A stretch of 40,406 nucleotides of DNA from Chrysophaeum taylorii (lineage: Eukaryota; Sar; Pelagophyceae; Pelagomonadales; Pelagomonadaceae): positions 1 to 40,406 of the forward strand of contig JAQMWT010000409.1 in the NCBI GenBank assembly GCA_029834535.1, given 5' to 3'. The notes under the pieces are model-generated. The model ran no database searches and had not been told where the DNA came from. It was given only the letters and a program-made list of their open reading frames with translations. Of the stretch, positions 7,272 through 37,900 are shown one piece after another; position 1 is the first letter of the stretch, and every line of letters begins with the position of its first letter. Position numbers and translations under genes: made by a program.

Positions 7272-7292
7272 GTAGTTTAACGACTTTTCGGT
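7272..7292 (-). repeat. Segment-border motif copy, peptide TEKSLNY
   Basis: It is in frame within the 883-codon open frame and reads TEKSLNY, joining the gag-like part to the next segment. Confidence 0.65.
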
Positions 7293-14935: not shown

Positions 14936-14947
14936 GACAAGTGCAGG

Positions 14948-15285: not shown

Positions 15286-15289
15286 GTGT

Positions 15290-15890
15290 AGACGCCGGGA
15301 GGGGGCTTATCGGTATTGCGCAGCACGTGTGGGGTAGGGTGGAGTCGTCGACCCAGAAGAGGATATCCTCGGGGTTGCCGATCGACAGAGAGCCACGTAG
15401 AGCTGGACGTGACAGAAGACGGGCTTGGGCAAGAGGACACCGACCTCGCGGGGCGTCTGGCCCTGGCTATTGTTGATCGTTTGGCGTAGGCGGGCCTTAA
15501 GGGATACAGGTTGGAGGAGCCTCGGTGACAACGACACGATCGATCATGTATCTGGTACCGTTGCAGTGGCCGTGCGACGGGTCAAGGTTACGAAGACCTT
15601 AAGCTCGCGCTCAAAGTCAGCATCCCGTTGGTTGTCAGGGAGTTGAAAACTCGACTGTAAAGAGCGAGGCGTCGTCTTCCGACCCAACCTAGTCGGCCGA
15701 AAAGAACTCCGACGCCTCGTCTCCGGGAAAAAAAGGCCGCGGTCATGCGCGCGTTGTCAGCATCGACAACATCGTTTCGACGGGGCGTGAGAATGGCGCG
15801 CCGAAAGAGCCGCCGCGGGTCGTGGAAATAGTCTGCGAGGTCGCCGTAGACGGCTTGGAGGATCACTGTCTGGCTCGCGTGCCTACCTGA
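15290..15890 (-). pseudogene. Helitron/PIF1-type helicase, C-terminal relic
   Basis: Minus-strand peptides in order match the end of Helitron/PIF1 helicases: RAILTPRRNDVVDADNARM (about 15830-15760), PGDEASEFFSAD (15700s), NLDPSHGHCNGTRYMIDRVV (15590-15535), TINNSQGQTPREVGVLLPKP (15480-15430), HVQLYVALCR (15415-15385) and GNPEDILFWVDD (15385-15345). In the family the first is followed by NE/IN-type sequence, NLD...NGTR is a conserved block, and QGQT...HGQLYVALSR is the motif V-VI region. At least three frame changes and in-frame stops show decay. No Rep domain or N-terminal helicase motifs are present. Confidence 0.85.
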
Positions 15891-16257
15891 TCCTTACCCT
15901 AAATCGGTGGACAAACAACAAACAAACAAACAAACAGACAGACAAACATCTGTCGATTAGTAGTAAGGACAGGGGAGTAGTGTTTTGTTAAAAAACCCAC
16001 AAAAAAAATGGTGGTTAGCCTTGGAACGGCGTTCGCCATCGTGCTTATCGCTCACTGCTTTTGTTTCCGGCAAAAAAACGTACATGACGAGTTGACCTTT
16101 TTTTGTGGGCGTACAGTACCAGTATTGTAGACTGCATAAAACTGTGTACTGTACCACTCTTCACACGCTACCATTCTTCCTCAACCCTCATGTTAAAGAT
16201 TTTGCTGTCGTTGATATTCCATAACGTTCGTTGATTAGTGATGATGAGTCGTGGAGG
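15891..16257. other. Non-coding spacer with (CAAA)n and two inverted repeats
   Basis: No gene. It holds an ACAAACAAACAAACAAAC run at 15911-15947. A perfect 12-bp inverted repeat (CCCACAAAAAAA at 15996-16007, its complement at 16098-16109) is followed by an 8-bp one (GTACAGTA at 16111-16118, complement at 16147-16154). It precedes the large plus-strand coding block and could hold its promoter or an element end. Confidence 0.55.
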
Positions 16258-17460
16258 ATGAGCGAGATCATCGAGGTAGTGTTGCGCGAGCCCGACACAT
16301 ACGACTTCTGCGGCCACCGCGGCGTCGTCCGGGAGCTCACGGCTCACGAGGCCTGGGGCTACCTGACGACGTTCTCGGTGGTTTTTGGCCGTAGGGAGGC
16401 CAGCCCTCCCGATGAAAGCGGGACGGAAAATCGCCGCCGCAAGTCGCGGTGCCCAAAACGAAGTCGCCGCCGTCTTCGCCGGCGCATAGCCGCCGCGCGA
16501 GAGGCCACGGCAGCCGCCGCCACCGCGGCTGCCGCCTCAGCCAGCACCGCGGCTACCGTCGCCGCTATTGTGGCGCGCGCCTACGTCGACGCCGCTGCTG
16601 AGGCTATGCGCGAGTACGAGCAGGCGCGACGTGAGGCAGCCCGGCGCGAGCTGCGGGCGGCGCGGCGGAGGCAGAAGCAAAAGAGGAAGAAGGCGTTGCG
16701 AAAGCAACGAAAACAAGCGGCGAGAAGTCCCCCCTTCGAGCAACCCACTGCTGATGACGACGCGGGTTTGGGGTCGGTCATGGAGGTGGTAGGGGTGGCG
16801 TCGTCAACATCATCGAGCTGCGACCTGACTCCCCAAGAACACTGCGCTGTAGCAACAGAAACCGAGACGCGCGTCGGGTCGTTGGAGTGCGGCGGCGTCG
16901 TCGAGGACCCACGTCATCGCGCACACCTTTCTCGCCATCGGCATGTGACCGATGTGGTCGCTCGCCTCGAGGCCATCGTGGTCTCGTTTCATGAAGGGGT
17001 AAAAGCACCCCTGTTTCTGGTGCGCGACGCGCTGGCGCAAGCTGACGGTGTTTTAGCTTGGCTCGCTATCAGTGCGGTTGCCCCACAATTGTGGGCAGCC
17101 GCGTACCACGTCGTGCGCAAGGACATCGAGGTGGAGCACGAGGACGAGCTTCTAGGACTATATGCTGTGATGGCGGATGCTGCGGTATCTGCTATCGAAG
17201 CATCCAATTGTCCAAGAGTAGCAGGGAAGGGCTTGTCCAAGGCGGCGCTAAAGCGGTGCCGACGCGACATCTCGGCAGCTGCGAAACGCTCGAGACGCGA
17301 GTTCGAGATGATGATGTCGACGATGGGGTTCGAGGTGGAGCGGCTCGACGTCACCCTCGCGCCGATTATCGCGCTCATACGGAGCGCGTCGAAGCCAAGC
17401 TTCTCCACCAATATGGACCGCAAGTGGAGTTCGCCCATGCTGACCGCTGTCCTGGGTTGA
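16258..17460 (+). CDS. N-terminal part: basic/Ala-rich then helical protein
   Basis: The first in-frame ATG is 16258 (MSEIIEVVLREPDTYDF). Residues about 55-80 are Arg-rich (RRRKSRCPKRSRRRLRRR) and may be a nuclear signal. An Ala/Thr stretch of about 40 residues and a charged helix (YEQARREAARRELRAARRR) follow. Residues about 210-390 look globular and helical (VTDVVARLEAIVVSFHEGV, AAAYHVVRKDIEVEHEDEL). The frame ends at TGA 17458-17460, but the next frame already carries sensible sequence from about 17380, so a one-base shift there is likely. Family not recognised. Confidence 0.5.
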   Translation: MSEIIEVVLREPDTYDFCGHRGVVRELTAHEAWGYLTTFSVVFGRREASPPDESGTENRRRKSRCPKRSRRRLRRRIAAAREATAAAATAAAASASTAATVAAIVARAYVDAAAEAMREYEQARREAARRELRAARRRQKQKRKKALRKQRKQAARSPPFEQPTADDDAGLGSVMEVVGVASSTSSSCDLTPQEHCAVATETETRVGSLECGGVVEDPRHRAHLSRHRHVTDVVARLEAIVVSFHEGVKAPLFLVRDALAQADGVLAWLAISAVAPQLWAAAYHVVRKDIEVEHEDELLGLYAVMADAAVSAIEASNCPRVAGKGLSKAALKRCRRDISAAAKRSRREFEMMMSTMGFEVERLDVTLAPIIALIRSASKPSFSTNMDRKWSSPMLTAVLG

Positions 17461-19214
17461 CGTCCTCGTCGCGTGCTGAAAAGAAGGATGTGTCGAGCGA
17501 CGACGACGTCCAAAGAGATCGTGATCTTGCTAACATGGGCGAGGTTGGCGATAAGAAGGACGGAGCTGCTTGCCGCCGTGGCGACGAAGACATCGCGTCG
17601 TACGACTCACGCACTTCGGTGTCACTATCAATCGTCGCCGATGACGACGCCGCCGCCTCTGACTCCGCCGACTCCAACGGCGACAACTGCGCAGCCGGCG
17701 GCGGCGGCGGCGGCGTTGTCGGCAACGGCGTTGGTGGCGGCGGCGTCGGCGGCGGCGGCGCAATCGGTGTCGTCGGCAGCGGCGTTGGTGGCGGCGGCGT
17801 GGGCGGCGTCGGCGCCGACAACGACAGCGGCGTTGTCGGCGCCCACAACGTGGGCGCCGACGCCGAGGCCGACGCCGACGCCACCAACGCCGCTGCCGAC
17901 GTCGCCGATTGCGCCGCCGACGTCGTCGGCGTCGTCCTCGGGGTCGTGCACAAAGAAGAGGCCGACGCGGACAAGGAGGACGGAGAAGACGAGGAAGAAG
18001 ACGCTGCTCGTGATGAGGCTCATGCCGAGACGCTGTCTGATGCCACGCGCCTTTTTGAAGAAAAGCAAGCGGCGCTCAGGGCCAAGCACGAAACGGCATT
18101 GGAGTCGGCAACGCGGAAGCTCTGGCTCGAAAAGGACAGGGGTCACAATTCAGACCTGGTCGCAGCCCTTCGTGCGAGAGATGCTGAGCACGTGAGAGCA
18201 ATCGAAGCTCATGAAGAGCGAATGGCCGCTCTCGAAGGTCATGAAGAGCAAATTGGGGAACAGCACGCTCAAGTCGTGGCGGATGCAAAACTCAAGCATG
18301 AGTCAGACGTAGCAGCTGCTGTGGCTTCGGCAGTAGAAGCTGCTTCCATCGAGCGCGATCGCCTGCACGCGGTGAAGGTGGCGCAGGCTCTGCGAGATCG
18401 TGACGCGGCTCACTCTGTTGATTTTGAAGAATCTGTTCGAAGGTATGAGGAGCATCTCGATTTGTTGCGATTGCGTCACGAAGCCGCATTGGCGTCTGCC
18501 ACGGCATCTGCTAGTGCATCTGCTCGCGCCGAGAACGATATGCAGCGAAGGTCGCTCGAGTCAGGGCACGCGACCAAGCTCCGCGAGGCGTTGGCAGCTC
18601 AAGAAGCAGAGCTTCGTGCACGGCACGCCGCCGAGCTCGAAGAACGCGAGTCGGCCCATCGTCGCGCGCTGAACTCGGTTGAAGAGTCACGTCTCGAATA
18701 CGAGGCGGTGCACGTGGCGTCGGCGCGGGACTTCGAAGCGGAGCTGCAGAGGAAGAGCAATGAGCACCGTGCGACGCTGGCCGAACAGGCGGCGCAGCAC
18801 GAGGTGCTCCTATGTTTGGCGCTGGTAGAAAAGGAGGCTGCGAATCGGGACTCGCTCGCGGAGACGGAGACAAAGCCGCTTTCGCTGGTCGAGTCTCAGA
18901 GAAACGAGGCGCGCTCCGAATTGGATTCTGTGCGGATTGGCGAGGGGATCGTGATGGCACACGGAGTGCTGTCACAGATGGCTCGTGGGCGAATGAGACG
19001 CAGCTTCCTGAGGTGGATTCTGTTTGCAAACGCTCGTAAGAACGTCTCGGAATGGGAAGTTGATTACGAACTCGCACTGCGTGCGGCCGTATCCAACACA
19101 AGACGGGCCATAAGCAAGGCTGCTGGGTCGAGTAGCTTGGCGCATACCGTCATCGGGATGCTGTCAGGGTGCTTGAGTGGATGTTGGCATCTGTTGGTAT
19201 CATTTCTGCGGTAG
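17380..19214 (+). CDS. Acidic/Gly-rich linker and long coiled coil, first part
   Basis: The continuing frame starts around ERVEAKLLHQYGPQ. An Asp/Ser stretch is followed by a Gly/Val-rich low-complexity region (17698-17850, GGC-type codon repeats), an Ala/Asp region and an acidic block (KEDGEDEEEDAARDEA). From about 18000 it is a continuous charged coiled coil, with repeats such as LRAKHETALESATRKL and LEKDRGHNSDLVAALRARD. Near 18970-19040 comes MARGRMRRSFLRWILFANAR, a Trp-containing basic helix of the sort found in centrosomal/SFI1-like repeats (weak resemblance). The frame meets TAG at 19212-19214. Coiled-coil sequence resumes in the same frame, so the stop looks like a nonsense mutation or a recoding site. 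Confidence 0.5.
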
Positions 19215-20573
19215 ACCCGACAAGCGGACGTCGAGGCCAAAACAAAGCGCGAGGTGTTGGCTGCTCACGCGGCAAACGTCGAGCGGCACAAAGAACAGCG
19301 TGGTCTGGAGGTTGAGCGGTTGTCGGCCGAGCATGCAGTAAAAGTTGCGTCGGTCGAGCTCGAGAAGGAACGAGAAGCCACGAAGCTACTTCGGTCGTCG
19401 CTGGATGAACGCGATCGAGAGCATGCTGCAGCTCTGGAGGTGGCACTTACGAGGGCAGCAGGTGACAAGGCAGCGGTGCTGGCATCCCACAAGCTTGAGC
19501 TGGAGGAGCTCGAAGCTGCGCCTGCGCGGCAGCAGCGGACTCTGGCGAAGACGCTAAAAGGCGAGATGGCATCGGCGACCCAGCTGTTGGATCTCGAGAT
19601 GGATCGTGCGCACGGCGCAGAGCTGGTTTCAGCTTTGATTGCGAGGGATGAGGAGCACGCCAAGGCTGTGGAGACTCGCGAACAACAATGGAAGGCGCGC
19701 GAGGCTTCAGCCCTGGACGAGCAAAGAGGCCAGCACGAGAATGCCCACTCGGAGGGGTCCGAACGTCATCGCGAGCACCAGACGGCACTGAAACGCAAGG
19801 ACGAGGCGGAAATAGCGGCTGCGCAGGAGAGCGTCGAAAACGAGAAGGATCGTTTGCTGGGCGAGACCAATCGGCAACGCGAGGAGGCTTGCTCGCAGGA
19901 GCGGCGTCGGCTCGAAGAAGATCTTAATGGAAACCATCGCTTCGAACTCTCGGAAAGCCTGGAAACAGCGGCAACTTCAGCAGATGAGAAGTTACGGGAG
20001 AAAGAATCTACCCTTCGCGCCAAGCATAACGCCGAGCTCGAGTCAACGAAGGAAATGCTCATGCTCGAAAAAGACCGGAGTCACAACTCGGAGCTGGTCG
20101 CGACTCACCGGGCGAGAGACGACGAGCACGCGAAGTTACTTGACGCTCTGGAAAAGGAGCATGCAGAACGGCACGCTAGGGGGGGGCTCGAAGAACAGCG
20201 AGCGGCTTCGAAAGCACAACACGACGCCGAGCTTGCAGACGCGACAGCGGCTCATGAAGAACAATTGCAAGCCCTTCAGCGCAAGCTCCAAGCTGAACTC
20301 GCGCTCGCGACCGACACGGTAAAGAGGGAGAAGGACCTGCACCACTTTGAGCGTTTGGCCGAGGCAGGCCGAGTTCACTCGGAGCGTTTGGCCGATGTCG
20401 TTCGTGGAAAAATTGTCGCACGTGATCTAGAGCGCCAAGGGGTCATCCACCAGCATCAGTCCGAGGTGGGAGAGGAGAAAGAGGACGACGACGATGGGCA
20501 AGCTGAAGAGGGGCAGGAAGAAGAGGGGGACGAAGATGAAGACGAGGAATTACTTGGAGGAAGAGGAGGATGA
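19215..20573 (+). CDS. Long coiled coil, second part
   Basis: It continues in the frame of the preceding piece, directly after TAG. About 430 residues of heptad-rich charged helix (VERLSAEHAVKVASVELEKE, LEEDLNGNHRFELSESLE). Two further copies of the roughly 50-residue repeat lie here (ATQLLDLEMDRAHGAELVSA near 19570; LRAKHNAELESTKEMLMLEK near 20010). It ends in an acidic tract (EEKEDDDDGQAEEGQEEE), after which the reading moves by one base into the frame with EEEEDEEDDDGSDV. There is no upstream ATG close to 19215, so an independent gene starting here is unlikely. Confidence 0.5.
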   Translation, partial: TRQADVEAKTKREVLAAHAANVERHKEQRGLEVERLSAEHAVKVASVELEKEREATKLLRSSLDERDREHAAALEVALTRAAGDKAAVLASHKLELEELEAAPARQQRTLAKTLKGEMASATQLLDLEMDRAHGAELVSALIARDEEHAKAVETREQQWKAREASALDEQRGQHENAHSEGSERHREHQTALKRKDEAEIAAAQESVENEKDRLLGETNRQREEACSQERRRLEEDLNGNHRFELSESLETAATSADEKLREKESTLRAKHNAELESTKEMLMLEKDRSHNSELVATHRARDDEHAKLLDALEKEHAERHARGGLEEQRAASKAQHDAELADATAAHEEQLQALQRKLQAELALATDTVKREKDLHHFERLAEAGRVHSERLADVVRGKIVARDLERQGVIHQHQSEVGEEKEDDDDGQAEEGQEEEGDEDEDEELLGGRGG

Positions 20574-22191
20574 GGAGGACGACGACGGTTCCGACGTCGC
20601 ACCCTCGCTCATAGACGACGACGACGACGACGGCGGGCAGTCTCGTGCGTCCGCTGGTGTATTCCCGGTAATTTTGCCGAGCCGGAGTAATGTTTCTCCG
20701 TCCAAGATGGTCGAGCCTGCCGACAAGGGGATCCCCAACGCCGCGCAGAAAGACGCGGACCACGACTACGAGGCTTTCATGCACCAGCAACCTCCACACG
20801 GCGATCAATCGTGGACGGATGCGGACGGCGTGGCTGACGACGTCATCATCTCGTCGCCCTCGTTGACGTCCTGGAAGCTGCGCGCCGATGATGTCCGAAC
20901 CGACTCCCGCGCAGGAGAGGAGGACGCGCCTGGGCCTCGCAAAAAGAGGCTCGCCGACACCGAGGCTCACGTCGTCCGGGCGCCGGGCAACGACGCGTCG
21001 CTTTTCGGAGCGCTGTGTGTTGCCCAAGGGATATTCATGTCGGGTGACAGCGCAATTCGCGTCGTCACGTCCACGCGCAGCCTTCGCTGCAAGTTAGCGG
21101 CGTGGTTGACCGAGCACCAGAACGACGCCGCCCCCTCGGGCGTCGCGTCGTGGGCTCGTTGGATTTGGAATGCTGTCGGCTGCGATATTGGCGACTATGC
21201 CAACTTGATGTGCGGCGGCGAAGAATTATAAGGCGACGTCGACATCTACGTGTGGGCGGCTTGGTCCGGCTGCCACGTCGACGTATATGCTTCAGCCCAA
21301 GGCGGAGGCTACGTGTACCGTCGCACGATCACTTCGTCGACGTTTGGACGGGCGCGTGAAGACGAAAAGCGCGTCGCTCTACTCGCGCCTGCGCGGGGAC
21401 GATACGATGTCCTCATCATCGACGAGGACGAGGACGAGGACGAGGAGGACGACGACGACGACGGAGAGGGGGGATTCGACTTGACGCGCGCCGGGGGGGC
21501 GCGGACGCAGTCTGTGGAAAGCGGTGCGCTTTCCGGCGAACTCGTCTTCGTTGACGATGAGGGGGCCGAGAGCTGGACGTACAGAGTCGATGTCCAAGAC
21601 TTGGACAACCTCAACGCCGGCGGCGACTACCGTAGGCTAACGCCGCGCATGCTCTTCATCGCGCTCCTCATCATCGTCTACAACGACAACGACCTCCGCG
21701 AAACGACGGCCATCCAAGTCGAGGGATGGCACGAGCAGTACGCCCCATCAAACTTCTCGCGCCGTTTGCACGCGAGCGAAGGTGATCAAGACACCCCATG
21801 GCAAATCGAGGTCGTAGTCGGGGAAAGAGCTACCCGAATCATGCTTCGTGAATTCCGTGCTGAGCACGCGAGCGACGACGATGGCGATGGCGATCGCGTC
21901 ATCATTTCGTTGTGGAAGAACACCACGCGCGAAATGCTGACGTTGCAAGCTGCGCGACTCCTCTTGAAGCGGCTGGCCGGCGATCTTGAGGCGATGCGCT
22001 CGAGCGAGTCGGCGCGTACGATGGTCGAAGACCTTCTCGGGGAGCAGGAAACGCACCGCGTGCTCACCCAAAGAGCGGTGGAATCGAAGAGCCACCTGAG
22101 GGTTTACATTCGAAACGCAGCGGGTCTCCGGGGGTTCGGTGCAGACCGAGTACCAGAACAACTGGGGCTACGAACGTGCGACCTTCGATAA
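20494..22191 (+). CDS. OTU-like region, catalytic Cys absent, with in-frame TAA
   Basis: Acidic low-complexity sequence leads to APGNDASLFGALCVAQG, which resembles the OTU cysteine-protease active-site segment (DGNCLFRAL type) with Ser in place of Cys. Then come a helical region with Trp residues, YANLMCGGEEL, an in-frame TAA (21229-21231), GDVDIYVWAAWSGCHVDVYA and ALLAPARGRYDVL. In OTU proteases the last element usually carries the catalytic His (HYD); here it is RYD. The fold is therefore only suggested, and the enzyme would be dead. A long acidic run (DEDEDEDEEDDDDDGEG) and about 220 unrecognised residues follow. The frame changes near 22150. The ATG at 20494 is probably internal. Confidence 0.4.
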
Positions 22192-23848
22192 GCGCGTCGT
22201 GCGTTCGTGGCTTTCGGCGCGCCTGGGGATAGGCAGCAAAAAAACGGGGGCCGTGTACGAGCCGGTTTGGATGACGGGCACGCAGCACGACGCGGCCGCG
22301 CACAAATACGACGAGGACGCCGGAGCAGTCGTCCGTTTCGACTTACGGCGTGTTTTTAGGAAGAGCCTCAGGATTCTGGTCATGGCGTGCGATTTGAAAT
22401 GGCGCACGGCCAAGTACGCTTGGCTGAGTGCGTTGCGCATGTGCGCCGACAAGAAGGATGTCGAAGCGGCGACGGGCCTTTACAAGCCCGACTCTATACT
22501 CGGGATCATGGTGCAGATTCAGAACTTCGAGAATCGCGAGCTGCAGAAGCATGCGAAGCGATGCAGACTCGGCCGCCCGCACCCGAACAAGATCATCCAA
22601 GAGGCCATCCAGGCGGTAGTTGGCCAGCTCGAGGACTACATGGACTCCCACGCAGACGAAGTCTTCGCAAAACTGTACAGGGACGTGCGTAGCGCGCTTC
22701 CTTGGAAGCCGAGCGGTGCCCGCCTGCTGTTTGCGCCGCTGTGCGATTCGTTCGATGCCACAGTGCGCCTGACGAACACGCAGCACCTCCCTGAGGACAT
22801 CAAGCGCGCCATGCGGGTGCTGACGCGGCCTTGCGTCATTCCATTCCTCGATAAGCTCGAGCTTAGGGTCGGCATCCAGCAAAACGAAAATCCCTCCACA
22901 TCCCCGGGGGAGCGCTTCGACACGGCGCCCTTCGCGCGCGAAAAGGCGCCCTTCGCGCGCGAAAACGCGCCTCGCTCGGCGCAGGACACTACGTGCATGC
23001 TGTACGACCTCATGGGGGGAAAGTGGTTCGACGGGACATCATACGGTCCCCCGAGGCTCCGGCCACTCGATGCTAGGGTCGTGAGGGTTATACGCGCGTT
23101 GTGTCCGAGGATTGTCCAGCGCCTCCGCGAGGGCGTCCGGGACTTCCGGGGAAAAAAGGGTGCCGAGTATGTGGAGGGTGCGGAGATCCTCCTCGAGCGG
23201 GTCGAGTTAAACGAGCTCCTCGTGGCGCTGCGCAATCAGGAAGTTGGGAAGCTCAAGAAGGACGATGACGACGACGACGACGAGGCGGGGAGCGACGAAG
23301 ATGGAAAAAAGGAAAAAGAACAAGTGCGATGTGAAAGCGCAGTCGCGCTTCACATGATGCGCCCTCTGAAGCTCCTCCCGCTAAGGGAGAAAGGAGCGGC
23401 CTTTTTCTTTTCGTGGACGCGGGAAACCTTCCCGGTCGTGTTGCGGACGCTGTGCGGCATCGTGGGGTTGACGGTCGACGAGGAGGCCCTCAAAAACGTC
23501 GACCCCGATATTTTTTTCGGGATAAACATTACGGGAAAACACTTGAGGCCGCTCAGCCAAAACTTCTCGACTGATGGCACTGCGTTCAGGCACAAGGTGA
23601 ATGTTTTCAAGGACAGGGCGTTCGCTGCGCGCACGGACACGGGTTTCCCTGAAATCGAGCCACGCGTGCGTGGTGGCGATGACTGGGACGACGCATTAGG
23701 TGTTGTACGCGACAACGCGGAACGTTCAGCGTACGTGGTGGGTCGCTACGGGATGGGTCGCGGTGGGGGAGGAGGTGGGGGAACTGGGCCGCCGAGCCAC
23801 GGCTACTCCACAAGGAGGAAGGCGAGGCTCGAGAAAGAAAAGGCGTAG
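22139..23848 (+). CDS. Possible Fanzor N-terminal (pre-RuvC) region
   Basis: About 560 residues in one frame. A helical part (FRKSLRILVMACDLKW, KHAKRCRLGRPHPNKII) is followed by an acidic linker at 23262-23300. Then come LKLLPLREKGAAFFFSWTRE and, some 60 residues on, NFSTDGTAFRHKVNVF (TDG near 23569-23577). Fanzor proteins commonly show an LP-type block followed by a TDG motif before their RuvC part, so this may be the missing N-terminal half of the nuclease whose RuvC part lies at 29.5-30.5 kb. The tail is Gly-rich and basic (STRRKARLEKEKA), ending at TAG 23846-23848. The same frame stays open beyond it for about 900 bp. An 18-bp tandem duplication lies near 22926-22970 (APFARE twice). Family similarity is by eye only. 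Confidence 0.4.
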   Translation: MQTEYQNNWGYERATFDKRVVRSWLSARLGIGSKKTGAVYEPVWMTGTQHDAAAHKYDEDAGAVVRFDLRRVFRKSLRILVMACDLKWRTAKYAWLSALRMCADKKDVEAATGLYKPDSILGIMVQIQNFENRELQKHAKRCRLGRPHPNKIIQEAIQAVVGQLEDYMDSHADEVFAKLYRDVRSALPWKPSGARLLFAPLCDSFDATVRLTNTQHLPEDIKRAMRVLTRPCVIPFLDKLELRVGIQQNENPSTSPGERFDTAPFAREKAPFARENAPRSAQDTTCMLYDLMGGKWFDGTSYGPPRLRPLDARVVRVIRALCPRIVQRLREGVRDFRGKKGAEYVEGAEILLERVELNELLVALRNQEVGKLKKDDDDDDDEAGSDEDGKKEKEQVRCESAVALHMMRPLKLLPLREKGAAFFFSWTRETFPVVLRTLCGIVGLTVDEEALKNVDPDIFFGINITGKHLRPLSQNFSTDGTAFRHKVNVFKDRAFAARTDTGFPEIEPRVRGGDDWDDALGVVRDNAERSAYVVGRYGMGRGGGGGGGTGPPSHGYSTRRKARLEKEKA

Positions 23849-25605
23849 GACGGGAAAAGCCCCAAAAGACAAAAAGTTGAGTCAAAAACCGCAGAAGAAG
23901 ACGACAATCAGCACGAGGAAAAAAAGGGCTTAAATGCCCTCGCGACCGCCGCATCAAATGCCGAAAACGATGATGACGATGACGGTGGCACACCAACCGA
24001 AACGTCGTCGGACCGACCAAAGGCCAGCAAAACGAAGCGTCGTCGGGTCCAGGCGGCGGGTGAGGGAGGAAAAAAAGGCCCGGCCGCGAATCGGTCCAAA
24101 CCGACCACGAGACGCGCGGCGGCGGCAACGGCGGCGGCGACGTCGATGGAAGCGGGGTCTGCGTGGGTGTCTTTCTGGCAACCAGATGTCCGCGACGCCG
24201 CACCCCACAACAACGCCGCTCACGACGACAACGACGACTCCGATTGGCGCCTTCGGCGGGCGACCAACGTCCCGAAGCCAATCGTGGACGCCCTTGGCGA
24301 CGGGTTCGTTACGTACGACGCCCCGCCCTCCCTTTACGACGCGGCCCGGTTCGTCGTTTACGGCAATGGCCCACCGGATGACTACGACGGCACGTACGAT
24401 TTTGCGCGTGGTCGGCAGCACGTAGCTTCCTACGTGGAAGAGAACCACGGCGACGCGGTGTTGGGGTGGCTGGTAGCACGGACGCTTTATGCGAAGGGTG
24501 TTCCGAGTGGCTGCGTTTGTCGGACACAGGCGCTCGAGTGGGCGCTGCGGTGCCGCGAGGGAAAACTGAAGCCCCGGCCCGAGGACTGCCAGATCCTCGC
24601 GATCGCCACCAAGACGCGCCTCGTGCGTCTTTCAAGCAACCACGGCGTGGTTGGCTACGTGGCTGTCTCCGAAACGGACGCCATCGAGACGAGGGCAACG
24701 CCAAGCGACCTGGGGCCGGTGGTAATCCACGAGCGCGCTAGACGACGCGGGCAACGCCTCGTGGTACGTCGCGTTGCGTGCTGCGGAGGGGGAGACGCGG
24801 GTTCAAGACGTCGTCACCTACATGGACTTTGACGTCGGCACCGTGGATTGGGTCGAACAGTCCGCCCTCGCCGCTCTTCCAAATGTTCAGAACATTCTGA
24901 ACATGCCTCGTCACCATGGGGACGCAGGCGGCCGAGATTCGGAAGATGGTGCTGAGACGCTGTACTCGAAGCTTCGGGTCATCGAGCGGCTAGGACGCAA
25001 GTCTCAACCACAAACCCGGGGAGCGACTCACTCGCTCTCGTCGCCCGCCAAAGAACGGCGCGCGGAAACCATATTTGAAGCCCCCCTCAACGCCGAGGGG
25101 CTTCTGGTCGTCGAGCGCGCCGCCGTGTTGGCGTCCTTGTTTGTACGGGACTTCCAATGGAACCGTCGTGTGATTCGTAATGCGGCGAGAGGTGCCAGGT
25201 CAAGAGTCTCGTGCGTCGCCGACGTCATCGCGACGCTCCTGGGTTGCAGTGTTCCGTGTGCACGAGGGAGTCTCGAGACGTTGATAGGCGAAGATTTTGA
25301 AGCTGGGGATGCGGCAGCGAAGTTGGAAGACCATTTTTTGGAAAGCCCGATTGCAATGGGTTTATTGGAAAAATACGACAAAAAACACCAATTTCAGGTG
25401 TTGTTCAAGCGAGACATTAATCTCACCAATGACGAAAGAATCGCGGTGAGAATTATGGTCGACCTCGGTTTCGAAATCAGCTACCAGAGCTGATTCTGGA
25501 CGAGCAGCCGGATGGTACTTTTCTTGTGGGGAGGATTGCCTTGCCTGACCAGCCGAGGGTCCATGCGACCATCGGACTACCGAAGAAGAGTCGCAATGAC
25601 GGGAG
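23849..25605 (+). CDS. Basic/acidic linker and weak second OTU-like region
   Basis: Directly after TAG 23846 the frame continues through a charged linker (DGKSPKRQKVESKTAEEDD, KTKRRRVQAAGEGGKK) with probable nuclear signals. From about 24150 it becomes globular: YDAARFVVYGNGPPDDYDG, YVEENHGDAVLGWLVARTL, PEDCQILAIATKTRLVRL. The frame moves near 24740 into DDAGNASWYVALRAAEG. The order of these blocks resembles an OTU fold, without a clear Cys. Helical, unrecognised sequence follows to 25493. Between about 25485 and 25605 the best sense is in yet another frame (LPELILDEQPDGTFLVGRIA). There is no confident start codon for a separate gene. Function unassigned. Confidence 0.35.
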
Positions 25606-27623
25606 GCGAGATGTCGGTCGCTTTGGACCCTATCGCAGCTAAGCTCGAATTGCGACACGCTGACGTGGCGTGCCTCCTCCCCGGACGACAGCTCAACGGT
25701 TTCGTCATTAAGGCGTACTGCCGCGTGTTGCACGAAGGACAGCTTCGCGACGAGCGTCGCGCGCGGCTTTGTCGGTTTCGTGGGCCCCAGGACACGGCAG
25801 TCGCGTTGTTCGATTCCGTCGCGCTCAACGGTACTCCAAACCACGAGGTCGTCGACGACCTCGACACGAATCTCCGCAACAGCACCGCATTTTCCGCGTC
25901 TCCGTTCACTTTCCGCCTGTTGTGGTTCCCCGTCCTCGTCACAGCATGCGCCGACCCAAGCCGCGGCGTCCACTGGGTCGTTACATGCGTGGACATCGCA
26001 AATTGCGCCGTGCGGTACTTCGACTCAATGAACGACACGGGGAACCCCGACCTCCAAAATCGGAATTTGCGCTTGTGGACGATCGGTCGCAAGGTACTTG
26101 CGTACCTCGCGGCAGAGGCGGAGCGGTGGGTCGTGGTCTTCGACCCGGCCAATTGGCGAATCGTAGACATGGATGCTGCGGGTAAACCGCAGCGCCAGGT
26201 GCAGCGGGACGACCACTCGTGCGGCATCTTTGTGCTCACCACGATGAACCAGTACTCGCTGTTGGGAAGGCGGTACGGCGAGTACGCCGAGCACGCCGAC
26301 GTCGGGCTTCGACGGCGCGTGATTGGCGACCTCGTCGAATACGCGCGTGGCGACGAGGGGTCGGGTGCCGCGCCGTATTTTGCGAAAGCAAAATCCTCTC
26401 CGGGGGGGGAAGGCGGGTTGGTGGAGTGCGAGGGGCCGGCCCCCAGCGTGGCGTTGGTCGTCGAGGCCACTGGCACCGACTCGGTTCCTCGCGGCGAAGT
26501 GACGGTGGGACACCGGCGCTACGTGCTCGCGTCTGTCGTGCTTGACGACAAAACAGTAGCCGTTACCCACGGGGAACTCGGGGTGTTCGTTCAGACGGAA
26601 GCCGGGAATCAACGACACTTCTTGTCGTGGCAAGAGGCGTGGCGTGAAAGGATGACGCGGGATAGTGCGCGGGGGGCCTACACCTGCCTGTACAGGCCAA
26701 TATACCCGACAGTCGACCCGACCTCGATCGGCATCCACGAGGCTCCCAACTTCGTGGGCTCTGGTGGTCGGGACGAGGCGAGCATGGGAATCGCGTCACC
26801 GGAGCGAGCGTCGCAACGGCCCACTGCAAGGGGGAGAGTCCAAGAGTGGACATATCGGAAGCCCAAACACCCCCCCCCCAAAAAAAAAATCAGTGAGTTG
26901 CTCGTCACCGCAAGCGGCAACTATAGCGCCGCCGTCGCGGTGTGCCACCTCCTTTCGAAGATTCCGCTCCTCGCGCACTACGCGAGACAGCGGATCGTGT
27001 ATGCGAATCTCGCCCTGGGCGATCGCGAGGGGCACCTCCACATCGCGGGTGCGATTTTGCTCCTCTTGCAGTCAATCGAACTTCCAAACTTGACATTTCC
27101 AAAAGAACGTGGCGACGCCGTCAGCGCCCTGGCGGAGATGAAGGACAACTTTGTGGGTCATTCCAGACCCCCTGGGAGCTTCATCCGCCACATATTCGGC
27201 GGGATGCGCATAGAGCTGGGAACCTCGCCTGGCCAGCCGCGGCCCATGAACGTGATTTGCGGCGTTGATGGTGGCGACGACGAGGAAGACTGGCTTCAAA
27301 AGGTCGTCATGCCCGTCTTGTTGGGCGGGGGCTTTGTTAATTCCCGAGGCAACGCGAGTAGAGTGCACGTGGATCAGTGTATGAAGAGCGCGGCGGCGTC
27401 GTCGGCGCAGCACCGTCCGAGCGTTAGGGCCAGCTTCATAATTTTCGAGTTCGAGAACGCGGATGGCAAGTGTGCGTTGCCAACAACGCTGGCTCTGCCT
27501 TGCAGAGATGGTACCTCGACGTTCAAGGCTTGCGCCATTGTGAGGTCGATGAAAGCCGCGGGTGGGGAACCAAGTTCCGACAAAGTTCGGAGTGAACCAA
27601 CCCGGCGGCGACGGCGAAGATGA
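25512..27623 (+). CDS. Ulp1-type (C48) cysteine protease plus Cys-less USP-like domain
   Basis: Ulp1-family enzymes remove SUMO or related modifiers. The N-terminal LELRHADVACLLPGRQLNGF fits the family's opening (a pg-x-LN-type element). The triad is intact, numbering from the ATG at 25512: His154 in GVHWVV, Asp171 in YFDSM and Cys237 in DDHSCGIFV, with a Gln in the oxyanion-hole position upstream of the Cys. After a linker with C and A homopolymers (26869-26890) comes ASGNYSAAVAVCHLLSKIPL, which resembles a USP/UCH cysteine box but has Tyr-Ser for Thr-Cys. PSVRASFIIFEFENADGKC and ALPTTLALPC further on also fit a USP core. The USP-like part runs past this frame's stop into the next frame (VVLVLYILDD near 27780). 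Real starts are uncertain; the ATG may be internal to a larger product. Confidence 0.7.
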   Translation: MVLFLWGGLPCLTSRGSMRPSDYRRRVAMTGGEMSVALDPIAAKLELRHADVACLLPGRQLNGFVIKAYCRVLHEGQLRDERRARLCRFRGPQDTAVALFDSVALNGTPNHEVVDDLDTNLRNSTAFSASPFTFRLLWFPVLVTACADPSRGVHWVVTCVDIANCAVRYFDSMNDTGNPDLQNRNLRLWTIGRKVLAYLAAEAERWVVVFDPANWRIVDMDAAGKPQRQVQRDDHSCGIFVLTTMNQYSLLGRRYGEYAEHADVGLRRRVIGDLVEYARGDEGSGAAPYFAKAKSSPGGEGGLVECEGPAPSVALVVEATGTDSVPRGEVTVGHRRYVLASVVLDDKTVAVTHGELGVFVQTEAGNQRHFLSWQEAWRERMTRDSARGAYTCLYRPIYPTVDPTSIGIHEAPNFVGSGGRDEASMGIASPERASQRPTARGRVQEWTYRKPKHPPPKKKISELLVTASGNYSAAVAVCHLLSKIPLLAHYARQRIVYANLALGDREGHLHIAGAILLLLQSIELPNLTFPKERGDAVSALAEMKDNFVGHSRPPGSFIRHIFGGMRIELGTSPGQPRPMNVICGVDGGDDEEDWLQKVVMPVLLGGGFVNSRGNASRVHVDQCMKSAAASSAQHRPSVRASFIIFEFENADGKCALPTTLALPCRDGTSTFKACAIVRSMKAAGGEPSSDKVRSEPTRRRRRR

Positions 27624-29340
27624 TCCTGCTAGGACGTACGAGGCGCTCTCGCTCTTTCAAACTCAAAGAGGAGAGGAATGGCGAGCGCACGGGTATGAAG
27701 GCAAGTGCGCAAGCGCGGTGACGCGGGACGCTCCGGGGTTTCGTTCTGGTCGGCACGAAATCGCATGTGGCGACGTGGTCCTCGTGCTCTATATCCTCGA
27801 CGATGCTCTACAAGTCGAGCAAAAAAAGAAAAGTATGATGACGATACTGAAACCTCAGGGACTACACGACCGTAGAACACAGGATCTCAGCACGATCTGG
27901 AAATCGCCCCTGCGATTCTGGAAGGAAAGGAAACGAAAAGAAAGCGACGGCGGCTCCAAACGGCAGAGGGCAGTGATCGCGGAGCGGAAGAAGATTCAGA
28001 TCGAACTCGCCAAAAACCGCACGCGCGTCGAGGCGAACGTCAGCGTGTGCCTTCAAGCAGGTCTTGCCAATGTTGCAAAGACGTGCGCCATTCAGAGCGC
28101 GATCAAGGTGTTAGCGGCGGTCGAGTCGTGGGCCCTCTTCCTTTTGACGGGAGACGTGTTCTACAACATCGACAGCGGGTTGGTGCCGTCAAACGGCAAC
28201 ATACCACCGCACACCAAAAATAATGCTGCCAAACAGGGGATGGTGGCCTTTGCCTGGCAGGCTTACATGCAGAAGATGCACAACCTGGGGCAGTCCGCAG
28301 CTGCTGATGAGCGCACAGTTGCGAACGACGACGAGCTCAAGGTTCTGCTCTACGAGCTTTCGAGGCGACCCACGGGCGACGATGGTCTTAAAGCGACGAC
28401 GACGTTCGACTACGGTAGTCGCCATGTGGTCGGCGAGATCCTCGACCATCTTCTCCATGCTTTCTACAGGGACATGATCCCGCCCGACCGAAAAAGCGAG
28501 AACAAGACCATTCAGAGAGTGTTTGACTCCCAAATGGAGATCACCTTCTCGTGTTGCAAGTGCGACTCAGAAGCGCGATCGACCGAGAGAGGTCCCGTCG
28601 TGCCGGTAGCGGTGAAAAGCGGAAATACGAAGCCGCTGGGGAAAATCCTCAATTCGGGCAACTATCTCGGTGGCGACGAGGATTCGGTTCGCGTTCCGTG
28701 TCCGAGGAGCCACCGCGACAAGTGCTCCAACGTGGGATGCTGCGGGCGACGCCAGGTTTCAGGGTGTCGTATCGACGCATGGTCGGAAAATGCCGTCGTG
28801 GTTCGGCTTTTCCGTGAACACGGCGGGAACTACGAGGTCGAAGAGCGGTTTGTTTTGGACGATGTGAAAACGATGGGTGCTAGCCAAGACCAAGGAAATC
28901 GTAGTCCGGTGTCGTTGAAGCTACGAAGCGGTGTTGCCATAGAAGAGGGGGGAAAACACGCCGTCGTGTTCACGTTCGTGTACAATAACGATACGGTGCG
29001 ATGCACCAGACACGACGACGAAAATGTCGTGGATTTTGATGCCGCTGAAGCGAATAATACACTTTCGTCATCGGCGGAGATCCGGGTGTACGAGCGGGAG
29101 GAAGACGGACGTATTTGCGGGCCAAACGCAATGTCACTTCCCGCGAGAATTAGACTAACGATGTCCCGCTGGAGGAGCATCCTGAAAAAAATGAGCACGG
29201 GGCCTGAGCGGGTGCGCGACTCGGAGAGGGTTGTAATGGCCCGTCTGCAAGAGGTGGTGCAATTGGCTTTTTCGAGGGAAAGTGCGCAGGAGACCGATGT
29301 TAGTGAAGACGACAACGATATCGACCTGGAGGGGGGGGCA
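27562..29340 (+). CDS. USP-like (C19) deubiquitinase domain with cysteine
   Basis: The first part (to about 27810) completes the preceding USP-like domain (EEWRAHGYEGKC, VVLVLYILDD). After a basic linker (FWKERKRKESDGGSKRQRA) comes GLANVAKTCAIQSAIKVLAA, a good USP cysteine box with Cys encoded at 28084-28086. RHVVGEILDHLLHAFYRDM follows at the place of the family's QDAHEFL segment. FDSQMEITFSCCKCD resembles the zinc-knuckle start, then CPRSHRDKCSNVGCCGRR. Near 28960-29090, VVFTFVYNNDTVRC and AEIRVYEREE stand where the His box (GHY) and terminal strand belong; a clear catalytic His was not seen, so activity is doubtful. The frame continues to 29577 as a shadow, but sense shifts at the eight-G run 29331-29338 into the Fanzor part. 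Confidence 0.6.
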
Positions 29341-30533
29341 CCTTTATCGAGAGGCAGGTCGGTGCGAGGAGCAACGCAACGCGCGGTTCCGCGAGCGGTG
29401 GTGAGGGGGCGTCGACTTCGGGGCCATCGGATGCACAATTATCTCGGGAAGCGGCCAAGCGGAAGAAGGCTCTCATCGCCGAGGCTAAGCGCGAGGAGAA
29501 GCGGAGGAGGGAGGTTAATCGGAAGAAAGTCGAGGGGAAGGAATTCGACTTCATCATCGCGAACGACCCCGGAATAACAACGCAGGGGTACCTTCGGCTT
29601 CGGACTGGCGACTGTTCCCTCATAAAGGAACAGGGCCGCATAAATCGACTCAGGGCACTTCGAGACGCTCGAGCCTACGAGGCTGCCGGCGGATATGAAT
29701 CGCGGGTCAAGCGACATCGGAATTTGAGGGACGGCGCCAAAAGCCCCGTATTTTGCACGGTGTCCGGCAGGTCATATAATCAGTTCGTCAAGGACCACCA
29801 GAAGCGGACCAATCTCCGGCACAAACGCCGGGGGAAAGGGCGTGACGACGAAGAAGACGACGACGACTACAAAAAGGACGTGTCGTTGCACGATACCGTC
29901 AAGCTCAACCGTTGGATGCTGGAGGGCTGGTACTCGTTGTACAAGATCGAAAATTCCGGAAAGGCGCAGACGCGCCGCGAGAGATTGAAGGACTGGGAGG
30001 ATCGGTGGGTGATTCGAACCCACCGCGGGCTCGTGCCGTGGGGTGTCCGGATGCTCGTCTTCCGCGGTGACTATTTCGATCGCTACCTTGGCCCGAAAAA
30101 GGAGAGACTATCCATCAGCCGGCGCGCGCCTATGCGCCGGCTAGGTCACGCCATGGATAGAGATCCACAAACGACGGTGCTCTCGACGGGAGAGTTCCGG
30201 TCCTCGATGACGTGCCCGAACTGCGGCGGGGCATGTCTTCACGTCCTCAAGGAGGGCGGAGAACGAACAATCTGGGGGACTCTGAGGTGTACGTCATGCT
30301 CAATGTGCTGGGGACGTGAATGCACCGCCACCCTCAATATCTACGCAGTGGGCATGGGTAGCGTCTTCTACCCCGAGGAGCAAGTGCACGACCGGCTTCG
30401 CAATTCTGCCGAGGCGAACACGTTCCTGTACACGGACGTCGCCAAGGCCAAGAACGACGTCGAGAAGAAGGCCTTCAACTGGAACAAGGTCAAGAAGTAC
30501 AACCGCTGGCGCAAGGTCAAGGTTGCGACCTGA
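29341..30533 (+). CDS. Fanzor-type (eukaryotic TnpB-like) nuclease, RuvC and zinc-ribbon part
   Basis: Fanzors are RNA-guided DNA nucleases related to TnpB. A basic bridge (LIAEAKREEKRRREVNRKK) leads to RuvC-I as DFIIANDPGITTQG (Asp at 29565). A long helical and acidic insert follows, then LVFRGDYFDRYLGPKKERLS and RuvC-II as STGEFRSSMTCPNCGG (Glu at 30192). The zinc ribbon is CPNC plus CTSC/CSMC, and RuvC-III is WGRECTATLNI (Glu at 30318). The family normally has Asp at this last site (RDxN-type), so the catalytic set here is D-E-E, possibly weakened. The C-terminal tail is basic (NKVKKYNRWRKVKV). TGA is at 30531-30533. No ATG starts this frame upstream of the RuvC, so it is either fused to the USP part or needs the N-terminal region at 22.1-23.8 kb. 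Confidence 0.82.
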
Positions 30534-31029
30534 ACGTCCTCTCTCCCTTACTACCTTGGCGCGCCGCGCAAGTGAGATCATATTATTGATGCGATTGTGA
30601 CTAAGTTGCGCGTGTTTCTTGCACAGGAGGTGCGGATACACCTACTCGACGGCGACGCAAGCCGGGCCCCATTTACTATTCCTGGGCCCGGTGATTGTTC
30701 TTAATTGGACAACCCGTGAGTATCATGATTTTCTGTTGTTGATTGTTCGTTATGGTTCGTCTCGTTAGTATTTTATTGTCCGAGTCCGAAATCATGGTGC
30801 TGTGTAACAACGGATTTTTTAATAACTTCCAATACCCCCCAAATCACCCCCCCCCAAAAAAAGAAAATCCTCGATTCGCAAACCCGCATATTCGACAAAA
30901 TTTTCCCCTTATGCTTCTAGAGACACGAGTGATTTTATGAACATAAGGTCTAGGGTTTAGGAGTAGTAGGGTTAGTTCGTCTTTAAAGGTCGACTGCTAA
31001 GAGGGGGGTGTTGGTGTTAGTTCGTCTTA
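30534..31029. other. Spacer between the Fanzor block and the host-gene island
   Basis: No gene. Notable content: a GC-rich hairpin (30662-30691), C/A homopolymer tracts near 30835-30870, a telomere-like stretch (CTAGGGTTTAGG near 30950, TAGGGTTAG near 30967) and a 13-bp direct repeat GTTAGTTCGTCTT at 30971-30983 and 31016-31028. It must hold the right end of the Fanzor block and the promoter of the PRP22-like gene. Confidence 0.5.
30662..30691. other. Perfect 8-bp GC hairpin downstream of the Fanzor stop
   Basis: CCGGGCCC at 30662-30669 pairs exactly with GGGCCCGG at 30684-30691 around a 14-nt loop. It lies about 130 bp after the nuclease stop codon, where a guide-RNA scaffold or a transposon end might be. 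It could equally be an incidental palindrome. Confidence 0.45.
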
Positions 31030-31151
31030 CTTGGGGTGGTAGAAACATGATCGAGGAGTTGGACAAGCTGCGAACGATTTCGCAGGTGTGCTTGGGGTGG
31101 TAGAAACATGATCGAGGAGTTGGACAAGCTGCGAACGATTTCGCAGGTGTG
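31030..31151 (+). repeat. Exact 61-bp tandem duplication over the PRP22 start
   Basis: The 61 bases at 31030-31090 recur without change at 31091-31151. Each copy holds the same ATG and the following 42 bp. As 61 is not a multiple of three, the first ATG is out of frame with the gene. Confidence 0.95.
31047..31103 (+). CDS. Upstream ORF (18 codons) created by the duplication
   Basis: The upstream ATG reads [18 protein letters not shown] then TAG (31101-31103), four bases before the main ATG at 31108. Its first 15 residues copy the true N-terminus. If transcription starts upstream of 31047, this uORF would lower PRP22 translation or require reinitiation. If it starts between 31050 and 31107, it is irrelevant. 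Confidence 0.6.
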
Positions 31152-34946: not shown

Positions 34947-37900
34947 CTAATCGACAGATGTTTCGGTAACTCCTTTCCCAACATCTCTGGAGGTCAAGTT
35001 GCACAGAGCGGAGTGTACGCAGGGTGGCGACGCGACACACATCGACGACGACCATTCCGCGTAGGGTAAATAAGATTCGATCAACCGTAAGGTTGTAACA
35101 TAGCGACCACACAATGTGTGCTGCACCACAGGAATATTCGGAAAGTTCTTGTGGTGGATCTGGTTGGCGGTGTCCGACGCATCGAGTGCTAGCACGACTC
35201 GAAACGACGTCCCACACGTTTCGTTGGCTCGTTGGAGACCTAAAGTACTGCCTCCGGCTCCACTGAACAGCATCACCACCTTGCGATAAGTGATTGGAAG
35301 CCATTGAACCTTTTCATATCGGCGGCGGATCTCCGCTTCGGTGATCGCGCGGCATTTCTTTTCATCTTCTTCCGACCTTCGAGCGAAATCGTCGCTGCCT
35401 TCAGGTCGTTTGAGGGTGGACTTGTTCGTCATAGCGGTCGTAGCGTCCTTTTGCACCGTGCTCAGCAGCATCGGCGGGGGAGATTCGTCGCATCGCGTCA
35501 AGTGACTAATGACAGAAACGGTGAAAGAAAGGTTCCCCTTGTCGTATCCTTCTTCAGATTCTTTCGTAAGTTCGTTGATCGTAGAGACGTTCAACTCATC
35601 TTCGTACCTAACGATATCACCAATCGCAAGGATTTCGCCTTGAGTGACGACCGTCGGCACTTCTTCCGTGGCAGTAACCGCCACCCGAGCAGCGGACCGG
35701 TTGCGCTCTTCGCAAGAAGAACACATTCCTTCGACAACTCCCAACTGCTCGTTCTCAGCAAACGTAGCGACGAAAACCTGTCCTCTTTCCATAGGTTTCG
35801 ACAAAATAACCGGTAGATTGTACGTTCGACCGGGCTCGATTTGAAGCGTGCGCGCAGCATAAGCGATTACTTCTCGCGCGTCTTCTCCCGGAGCTGGGGA
35901 GAATTTGGTCGTAGCATGTCCCCGCGTAGCCAAGGCTACCTTACGTTCCGGCGGCGGGCTTCGGAGATCTTTAATCGTGCTCAAACGAGCGTAAACTCGA
36001 GTCTTGACCAGGTCGAGACTCTGCCGAAAGGCATCGTGTTGATGATTGTAAATCGGTACGGTTATCGGATTTCGATCGTAAATAGACCGAAAGGTCACGA
36101 TTGGTGCATCGACCCGTTCATCCTTAACTTTAATCTTTTTGCGCCCGTAGACGACTTGGGTTCGACAAAAACAGATCCGATCATGGGGAAAATCCACGAT
36201 GGCTCCTAAAACTCGTATATCGCGCCCTCCCAACAGGAACAGATAATTCGTATCGGCTACAATAGCAACAATGGGGGCAGCGAAGTCGTCGGCGAAAGCG
36301 ACCCGAAGGGTGATCCAACGATGGATCGTCGTCGTATTCAACCCTGATCCGTACAGCTTGCGCTTAATCGGAAGTTCGCCTTCATCGAAAATCAACTGAT
36401 CTTTGGTCAACCTTTTGACCATTTCTCGGCAAATATAAGAAACATCTGCCATTCCATCGACACCAATGGTCGTCGAGAATTTCGGTCCGTCACGATTCCT
36501 GTAGATGTGACAGGCTATAAACGTTAAAGTACCCGTATCTAAACAACTGAGGGTAATCAAATCATCTTCGATCGTCTTGCCATCTCGCGGCGTCAACGAA
36601 GTGTGAGCACATCGGGCTCTGAATCGCTCATCTCCGGGGTTGGGCATCGATACCGCGGCTTGAGCTTTCGTATTATCTGTTGTTGGCGTCTTCGCCATAA
36701 TGCTCGCGGAAGCCTCTTTATCTGGCGGCTTCCGCTCTTCCTCCAATACAATCTCCGAGGGAATAAACGCTGGTAGGGGATCCTGATCTTCGTAATCCTT
36801 GGAAGCAAACAACCCCTCCCATAAATCATTCATTTCGTCGTTCCAGAATGCATCTGTAAATTCATTCGTCGCCTGCTGATCCTCATCAGCATCGGCGATC
36901 GGTTCCGTGTCAGCTGCGGCTTTGAGTCTGCAGCTGCGCGGTTGTTCTGGTGGCTTCTTCAGCAAGAAATTCTGAGCTTTCGTCCACCAATCCTGCAGGT
37001 TCCACGTCTGCTCGTCTTTGTCACACTTGAGAACGCTGCTATTCTTCTTCATAAATCTATCCTTTTCTTCCGGCGGCGCATCCGTGTCTCGATCCGTAGT
37101 AATCGAAACCGTTTCGGGGGGGTCCGCAGGAAAAGATGGCGTCGTCCCCGACGTCAACTCTGTCGTAAAATCGTCGTCTGCAATACTCGCGCTTGTCATC
37201 GTCTCGTCAGTCGAATGCGCGCACGAGCTATCACTGCAGAAATTCATATCTGGCTCACAGCCAGTTCGGTCGCCAGCGGTCGTCTCTGGAGGGTCCAAAG
37301 ATAAGCCGATGGCATCGAGGGCTTCCTCGTCAAAAATAAACGGTGGGTCGTCCGTGGACGACTTGTCAAATAACGTTAACGCGGACACTGGTTCAAAAAG
37401 TGTAGCTTCTTCATCTTCCGAATCTGAATCGCCTTCCCAGTATCGTGTAGCTTCAAGTTCCTCGCTCGAATCTTCGAGCTCATCGCTCGACATCTGCTCA
37501 TAAATCTGTGCCAAAGACCGACGATTGGTCAGCACGTCGTTGGGTGGCTCGTCCATCGGTGGGCGAGCAAGATCTTCGAATGCGGCCGCGGCAAGGGCGT
37601 CGGCTGCGTCGTCGGTGCGGGTGTCCATGTTCGGGTACACCGTCACTCCTAATGGTAACTGTTGACCGCAAGGGGTCGTAAATGCGAACGTTGCAGACGA
37701 CTGTCCCGAGTCTTCTCGGTAACGACCATCGTCCGAATCTCGATCGCGAGATCTTCGTCGCCGGCGGCGGCGTGAATGTCTGCTAGAGCTCCTGCTATCT
37801 TTCCGTCGGCGCTGGCACGAACTGCTACGGCTCTTGTCGTGGCGTCGGGGGCTCCGGCTATCTCGACGGCCCGTTCGTGTCGAAGACGATCGGCCGTGTC

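Follow-up and report, generated by a model that had tools for sequence, protein, structure and literature searches.

A repeat family of Chrysophaeum taylorii whose frame-broken long gene couples SUMO/ubiquitin protease domains with a Fanzor-type RuvC half

We describe here a repeat of the pelagophyte Chrysophaeum taylorii, found on the forward strand of a 40,406-nucleotide stretch of DNA (contig JAQMWT010000409.1, positions 1 to 40,406; hereafter the window, or C409). With a probability that we put at about 0.6, this repeat is of a once-mobile type, and its long single gene joined SUMO/ubiquitin cysteine proteases to a Fanzor-type RuvC/zinc-ribbon (TNB) half. The copy in the window is a dead, frame-broken member of a repeat family in the 70.8-Mb assembly of 697 contigs that we scanned. 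The fusion of the proteases with the RuvC half is real, is repeated across the genome and was once under selection. Judged by its domains, the gene is predicted to consist of a Ulp1 domain, at least one USP-type domain, degenerate USP- and OTU-like domains, and the RuvC/TNB half. Its product would be a transposon-type RuvC with tethered deSUMOylating and deubiquitinating enzymes, a pairing that we did not find in the literature searched.

The region takes the form of a chain of stop-to-stop open reading frames (ORFs) on the forward strand, with the frame changing along it. Each junction of this broken frame was mapped onto the copies that cover it, with the window excluded. The junction between the coiled coil and the piece at 20431 is open in the single copy covering it (C40); those from 20431 to 21232 and from 21232 to 22100 are both open in 2/2 copies (C40 and C350). 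From 22100 to 23849 the frame is open in C40 and closed in C350 (1/2), and from 23849 to 24726 it is open in C40 and C350, with a stop in C586 (2/3). The junctions from 24726 to 25494 (C40 and C586; 2/2) and from 25494 to 27553 (C314, C40, C586 and C29; 4/4) are open throughout. Finally, the junction from 27553 to 29307, which lies at a run of G residues, is open in two of four copies (C40 and C671, not C314 and C586), bearing out the claim of an earlier reading of this DNA (the original prediction) that the RuvC half is in frame with a USP-like domain after a single G-run shift. Each junction thus has one or more further copies in which it is open, which indicates that the stops and shifts in the window represent the decay of one long frame.

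The copies themselves, as delimited by blastn, vary greatly in extent. The longest other copy, C40, aligns with 19639-30923 at 94-95% identity and halts at an element that is, by eye, of Copia type. Further copies span 23109-30769 (C586, beginning at a contig edge), 20624-25588 and 29694-30920 (C350), 25899-30871 with gaps (C29), 26895-30924 (C314) and 28463-30891 (C671), and C5, C334, C443 and C388 carry short 3' pieces, as does C314 at a second place. The block, originally delimited as 22139 to 30533, has a longer upstream reach than was supposed, to at least 19639; no Fanzor-family copy aligned to 15990-19638. Across the genome the RuvC ORF gave 29 match rows, several at 91-95% identity, and the Ulp1 ORF gave 12. 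The USP ORF gave 17 match rows at seven places, every one of which belongs to the element family, and the RuvC half is present at all seven (window, C314, C586, C40, C29, C671 and C9).

Evidence for past selection comes from two diverged families, on C9 (31-59% amino acid identity by segment) and C548 (33-47%). In both, the second USP is followed by the RuvC half, as in the window, and on C9 and in the window alike they are spaced at about 2.9 kb. Over the longest alignments with C9, the differences at codon positions 1, 2 and 3 number 66, 55 and 100 for the USP and 37, 40 and 76 for the RuvC half; one short C548 USP piece has no third-position excess (21, 19, 19). Because third positions differ most in the longer alignments, selection at the protein level acted on the second USP as well as on the RuvC half, and the retention of their order on C9 and C548, together with the third-position excess, shows the USP-RuvC fusion to be old. 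Neither the Ulp1 ORF nor 22100-23845 found a match in the stretches compared on C9 and C548. Upstream of the C548 copy lies an ORF of 1462 residues (L021, 304-4689), a coiled coil by eye, without a tblastn match to the coiled coil of the window.

The cassette of one OTU-like, one Ulp1 and two USP-like domains that had been proposed on a single strand is seen, with Pfam matches for Ulp1 and the second USP, and with the OTU-like and first USP-like regions recognized by eye only and matching no Pfam family. The Ulp1 domain of ORF 25494-27620 scores 25.5 bits with PF02902, and the corresponding C48 domain of C40 scores 25.8 bits (cut-off, 20.7). Among the near copies mapped, His, Asp and Cys are kept in 4/4 and Gln in 3/4, such that all four catalytic residues stand together in three of the four. 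The second USP, in ORF 27553-29574, matches the UCH family (PF00443) at 24.6 bits (cut-off, 23.9); its Cys is present in 5/5 near copies and on C9, and its candidate His (GGKH, chosen by eye) in 6/6 near copies. The OTU-like motif NDASLF has, by eye, a Ser where OTU has a Cys and, with no Pfam match, this region is not counted as an OTU peptidase. ORF 23849-24829, in the linker, likewise had no Pfam match.

The nature of the terminal half was assessed with two published sets of marks. The first comprises DPG, a Glu that precedes CxxC by six residues, and an Asp located four to eight residues past the ribbon (Yoon et al. 2023, PMC10711439); the second reads D-x(125,275)-[TS][TS]xx-C4-x(5,50)-RD (Bao and Jurka 2013, PMC3627910). 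Both the DPG and GEFRSSMTCPNC, the latter with its G at position 30189 and its E at 30192, do lie, as originally read, in ORF 29307-30530. When Glu is allowed as the last residue, the first pattern matches the window and C314 ORFs among 1775 ORFs, and 0/25000 ORF shuffles and 0/20000 own shuffles; when Asp is required, none matches. The DPG is found in the window, C314 and C548 ORFs and on C9, the RuvC Asp in 5/5 near copies mapped, and the displaced Glu in 7/7 near copies as well as on C9. The [TS][TS]xx-C4 ribbon, with Glu allowed at the end, is found in the window, C314 and C29 ORFs; in C671 the second Cys is replaced by Ser. A search of the PDB with the RuvC profile returned the mitoribosomal protein mS66 (E 0.025) and the TnpB-like L79 (E 0.033), both below significance, and a single-sequence structure prediction of 29307-30530 had a mean predicted local distance difference test (pLDDT) score of 36.5, too low for a fold search.

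Further support for the Fanzor-type affinity of this half is provided by a separate, compact Fanzor-like family in the same genome (L036-L039), which is about 24-28% identical to the element in the RuvC half. The Smith-Waterman score between the L036 ORF and the RuvC half of the window is 139, against 74 for the best of 1000 shuffles, and phmmer gave 6.9e-10 to 1e-8 for three copies. The L036 ORF carries all marks of the first pattern, including the Asp, and is without the [TS][TS] pair of the second, while L037, L038 and L039 are broken into pieces; in the PDB, L036 has mS66 on top (E 0.0037), and its first 330 residues found no entry. A compact Fanzor without the proteases, which had been named in advance as contrary evidence, was thus encountered as a distinct family and was not seen within that of the element, where C350 owes its lack of proteases to an internal deletion, and C242, like the short 3' pieces, is a fragment.

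The element ends uniformly on its 3' side: the terminus CTTCTAG is exact in all 12 copies read, 3'-only pieces included (the count leaves out places on C322 and C9 that matched the 3' region). The sequence beyond it differs from copy to copy, as do the 5' starts, and there is no poly(A). The next base is G in 9/12, A in 2/12 and T in 1/12 copies. One 3' end with varied 5' starts fits one-ended transposition or 5'-truncating retroposition; no reverse transcriptase domain was found among the element ORFs scanned with Pfam. Helitrons are marked by a 3' CTRR end, a 3' hairpin, insertion before T, and Rep/Hel. The element has CTAG at 12/12 ends, but T follows in only one, no 3' terminal hairpin rises above chance (z -0.36) and the scanned ORFs hold no Rep domain; the element is hence no clear Helitron. 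Helitron Rep domains are frequent in the genome (41 match rows). A 12-base flanking repeat at C29 sits about 60 bases from the 5' start of the element and was hence not counted as a target duplication.

Between the stop codon and this terminus lies a conserved non-coding region, which is by position a candidate guide-RNA region. In Spizellomyces punctatus the Fanzor guide RNA arises between the stop codon and the element end (PMC10432273), and the 387-nucleotide region of the element occupies the corresponding place and is well kept. Its fold is only slightly better than those of shuffled sequences (z -1.48; 8/100 shuffles as good), and no Rfam family matches the window at the gathering score.

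Table 1. Features of the element copy in the window
Feature	Position	Strand	Basis and remarks
Element copy, minimum extent	19639..30920	+	Stretch common to the window and the longest other copy, C40 (blastn, 94-95%)
Coiled coil with which the shared gene begins	19215..20570	+	ORF, named by eye; in C40 continuous in frame with the following piece
OTU-like region, approximate limits	20960..21340	+	Motif NDASLF read by eye; no Pfam match
Possible Fanzor N-half	22139..23845	+	Motif only: LLPLREKG, STDG at 23567
Linker; at about 24300-24700 a second, weak OTU-like stretch (by eye)	23849..25490	+	ORFs; no Pfam match
Ulp1/C48 SUMO-protease domain	25965..26255	+	Pfam PF02902; His, Asp, Gln and Cys present in the window copy
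First USP-like domain, approximate limits	26892..27800	+	Motif by eye, alignment A7; Cys box GNYS, no Cys
Second USP/C19 domain	28057..29100	+	Pfam PF00443 over 28057-28848, alignment A6; Cys box AKTC, GGKH near the end
G-run parting the USP frame from the RuvC frame	29331..29338	+	Five-copy alignment, window included; run length varies
RuvC/TNB half	29454..30530	+	Regular expression, residues in copies; DPG 29565-29573, displaced Glu 30192
C4 ribbon from 30213; Glu replacing the third Asp at 30318	within 29454..30530	+	
Conserved 3' non-coding region, 387 nucleotides	30534..30920	+	Six copies aligned; CCGGGCCC/GGGCCCGG hairpin
Common 3' terminus CTTCTAG	30914..30920	+	12/12 copies read, window included

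Several observations weigh against a once-active fusion protein of this kind. Other copies, which had been anticipated as a means of reconstructing an intact version, were found, yet none among those compared is open from end to end. The share of differences at third codon positions between near copies is 0.30-0.48 by region, close to neutral, from which it follows that the near copies are dead, and no expression evidence was found for the element. No transposase domain is present among the element ORFs scanned with Pfam. The UCH matches of two other copies, at 22.8 and 19.2 bits, are under the cut-off of 23.9, and the TNB match (PF07282) of ORF 29307-30530, at 20.3 bits, is under its cut-off of 26.3. 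The Ulp1 Gln is replaced by Arg in C586, one of the four copies mapped, the His of the C9 second USP is likewise replaced by Arg, and the first USP box has a Cys in none of the four copies mapped; because of these losses, some of the protease domains may be inactive. The third catalytic Asp of the RuvC half (RD after the ribbon) is Glu in 7/7 near copies and on C548, and we therefore do not class the protein as a canonical Fanzor. However, GtFz1 has Asn in this place and is active (PMC11423790), so the change from Asp to Glu need not kill the enzyme. In the genome at large, a scan for TNB gave eight matches, the best at 24.5 bits and none above the cut-off. Two of these eight are ankyrin ORFs: L044 (577-1605) and L046 (667-1605) hold ankyrin repeats by eye and end in the start of a Fanzor-like ribbon (EWRTSRTCRGCG, ERRTTKKCPHC), with weak PF07282 matches.

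A last point on that side concerns the guiding half, which is a candidate only. The original prediction saw a Fanzor-like region 5.7 kb upstream of the RuvC half, with LKLLPLREKG and then STDG at 23567; the motifs are placed as was claimed, and profiles did not confirm homology to a Fanzor N-half. Fanzor1 proteins carry such an LLPL/STDG-like motif before RuvC1. In ORF 22100-23845, 69 residues lie from the start of LLPLREKG to the end of STDG. A loose pattern (LP[LVIQ]...[ST][TSN][DN]G), set after the motif had been seen and modelled on Fanzors, is matched by 3/1775 ORFs, all of them copies of this region, and by 16/20000 shuffles. Pfam, NCBIfam, PHROGs and the PDB gave no significant match for 22139-23845 (Pfam at chance level, E 0.06, for 22100-23845). 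Against the compact Fanzor-like ORF it scored 55, a value reached by 13/2000 shuffles (24/1000 in another run), where 56 was reached by the element's own ORF 21232-22188 and 54 by two retroelement ORFs; hhalign gave P 0.24 from shallow profiles. With the first 330 residues of L036 as the phmmer query, two copies of the region rank second and fourth of 1775 ORFs (E 0.25 and 0.83), and with a shorter query they rank tenth or lower. The reverse search, with residues 400-520 of the 22100 ORF, found no match among the ORFs of the compact family, and the similarity of its first 270 residues to the ORF upstream of L036 was equalled by 986/1000 shuffles. The structure predicted from the single sequence of 22100-23845 has a mean pLDDT of 33.2, too low for a fold search. 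The region is thus, on its motifs, a possible Fanzor N-half.

L036 itself has LFPL and then FTDG, and next, ahead of the DPG, a linker of low complexity about 100 residues long; if the LLPL/STDG likeness is real, the proteases occupy the place of this linker. The element would then have encoded a complete RNA-guided Fanzor, with REC/WED (22139-23845) and RuvC halves some 2,000 residues apart and OTU-, Ulp1- and USP-type domains in the WED-RuvC linker. We hold this extended form only tentatively and consider it somewhat doubtful; were it true, this would be a guided nuclease of several thousand residues that brings a deSUMOylase and a deubiquitinase of its own to the site of cleavage. Of the proposed fusion, then, the joined gene stands on the open junctions and the collinearity of C9 and C548; the notion of a Fanzor that took in a protease module would hold only if 22139-23845 is the Fanzor N-half.

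The foremost alternative, which we regard as unlikely, is that the RuvC/TNB half is just a tail, DNA-binding or a relic, of some large deSUMOylating/deubiquitinating protein with no REC/WED and no guide RNA, and hence not an RNA-guided nuclease. The want of a significant match between 22139-23845 and any Fanzor or other family, the Glu in the third Asp position, and the recovery on C9 and C548 of the USP and RuvC parts alone would all be expected of such a tail. Yet the DPG is kept on both C9 and C548, and the displaced Glu on C9, despite large divergence, and LLPL and STDG stand upstream in Fanzor order. Distinctly less probable is that the copies are pseudogenes of a host gene family, segmental or retro-copied and 5'-truncated, that spread passively. 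This would account for the lack of transposase and reverse transcriptase domains, for the near-neutral changes between copies, and for 5' truncation with one 3' end, but it sits poorly with a terminus that is exact without poly(A) even in 3'-only pieces, and with the wide occurrence of Fanzors in eukaryotic elements (PMC3627910). Nested insertion of unrelated elements, by chance on the same strand and in this order, is hardly credible even in a region rich in other repeats, being contradicted by the recurrence of order and spacing, with frames joined, in independent copies and diverged families.

The proposed fusion of proteases with a Fanzor-type RuvC half may be compared with several known systems. 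As in Fanzor1 proteins (SpuFz1, GtFz1, PpFz1), which are eukaryotic homologues of TnpB, there is a DPG in RuvC1, a Glu six residues before the ribbon, and a C4 ribbon, and the whole is repeat-borne with a conserved 3' non-coding region. It differs from them in that proteases precede the RuvC half and in the Glu in place of the third Asp, where GtFz1 has Asn. Fz1 proteins are mostly 600-700 residues long, with PpFz1, which has an insertion of about 100 residues, as a notable exception (PMC11423790). Like the Fanzor1-carrying CRe-1, 2 and 3 of Chlamydomonas, the element has many 5'-truncated copies (PMC3627910); unlike these, which are tied to Helitrons by their target sites, it has T after 1/12 ends and no demonstrated Helitron link. 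Ulp1, OTU and C19 domains are known from the proteins of Ginger1, Mutator-like and other transposons, where a role in DNA repair has been suggested (PMC2836005). However, the partner of the proteases there is a transposase or a Helitron protein, whereas here it is a Fanzor-type RuvC/TNB half. No fusion of a Fanzor with a protease is described in the available text of the literature searched, which was largely without subscription papers and included PMC3627910, PMC10711439, PMC10432273, PMC11423790 and PMC2836005, and likewise PMC6338049, PMC13236599 and PMC13153721; Fanzor and Ulp1 occurred together there in a reagent context only. Protein-database searches with the RuvC ORF, alignment A3 and the Ulp1 ORF found no relative at their thresholds, two of them having scored only roughly 8,000 word-sharing candidates. 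IMG/VR protein scans found none either, and an STDGVSV pattern gave 118 stretches there (102 and 16), among them a single ORF with a loose set of four cysteines; the Fanzor pattern was absent from all.

If the fusion protein was active, its RuvC half would have cut or bound DNA during the spread of the element, probably led, as in known Fanzors, by RNA from the conserved 3' region. The tethered proteases could then have freed host proteins there of SUMO or ubiquitin, favouring repair or escaping silencing; their action on host repair or chromatin factors is a conjecture. A RuvC half kept beside SUMO/ubiquitin proteases over large divergence would point to host repair or silencing proteins as the other part of what Fanzors do for eukaryotic elements. 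The fusion thereby links two separate observations, that of proteases in transposon proteins and that of Fanzors in transposons, and the element offers defined domains open to assay.

The surroundings of the element are rich in repeats of other kinds. Retroelement ORFs of Copia and Gypsy types, named by eye, flank it on the reverse strand (1-9834 and 34950-39919). Upstream, 14937-15970 is a repeat unit of about 1 kb with dozens of occurrences genome-wide, often in tandem; on C242 (L022, L023), RuvC-half fragments of about 330 bases lie among such units. The coiled-coil stretch at 18002-20500 shows 81-88% similarity to units repeated on C436 and C262, which on C436 are about 2.4-2.9 kb apart. 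Downstream, an exact 61-base tandem duplication (31030-31151) lies at the start of an ORF that is helicase-like by eye. On C350 (L016/L017), the protein adjoining the element begins like a plastid-targeted leader, with LAFVGP, presumably a sign of an alga with a red-type secondary plastid.

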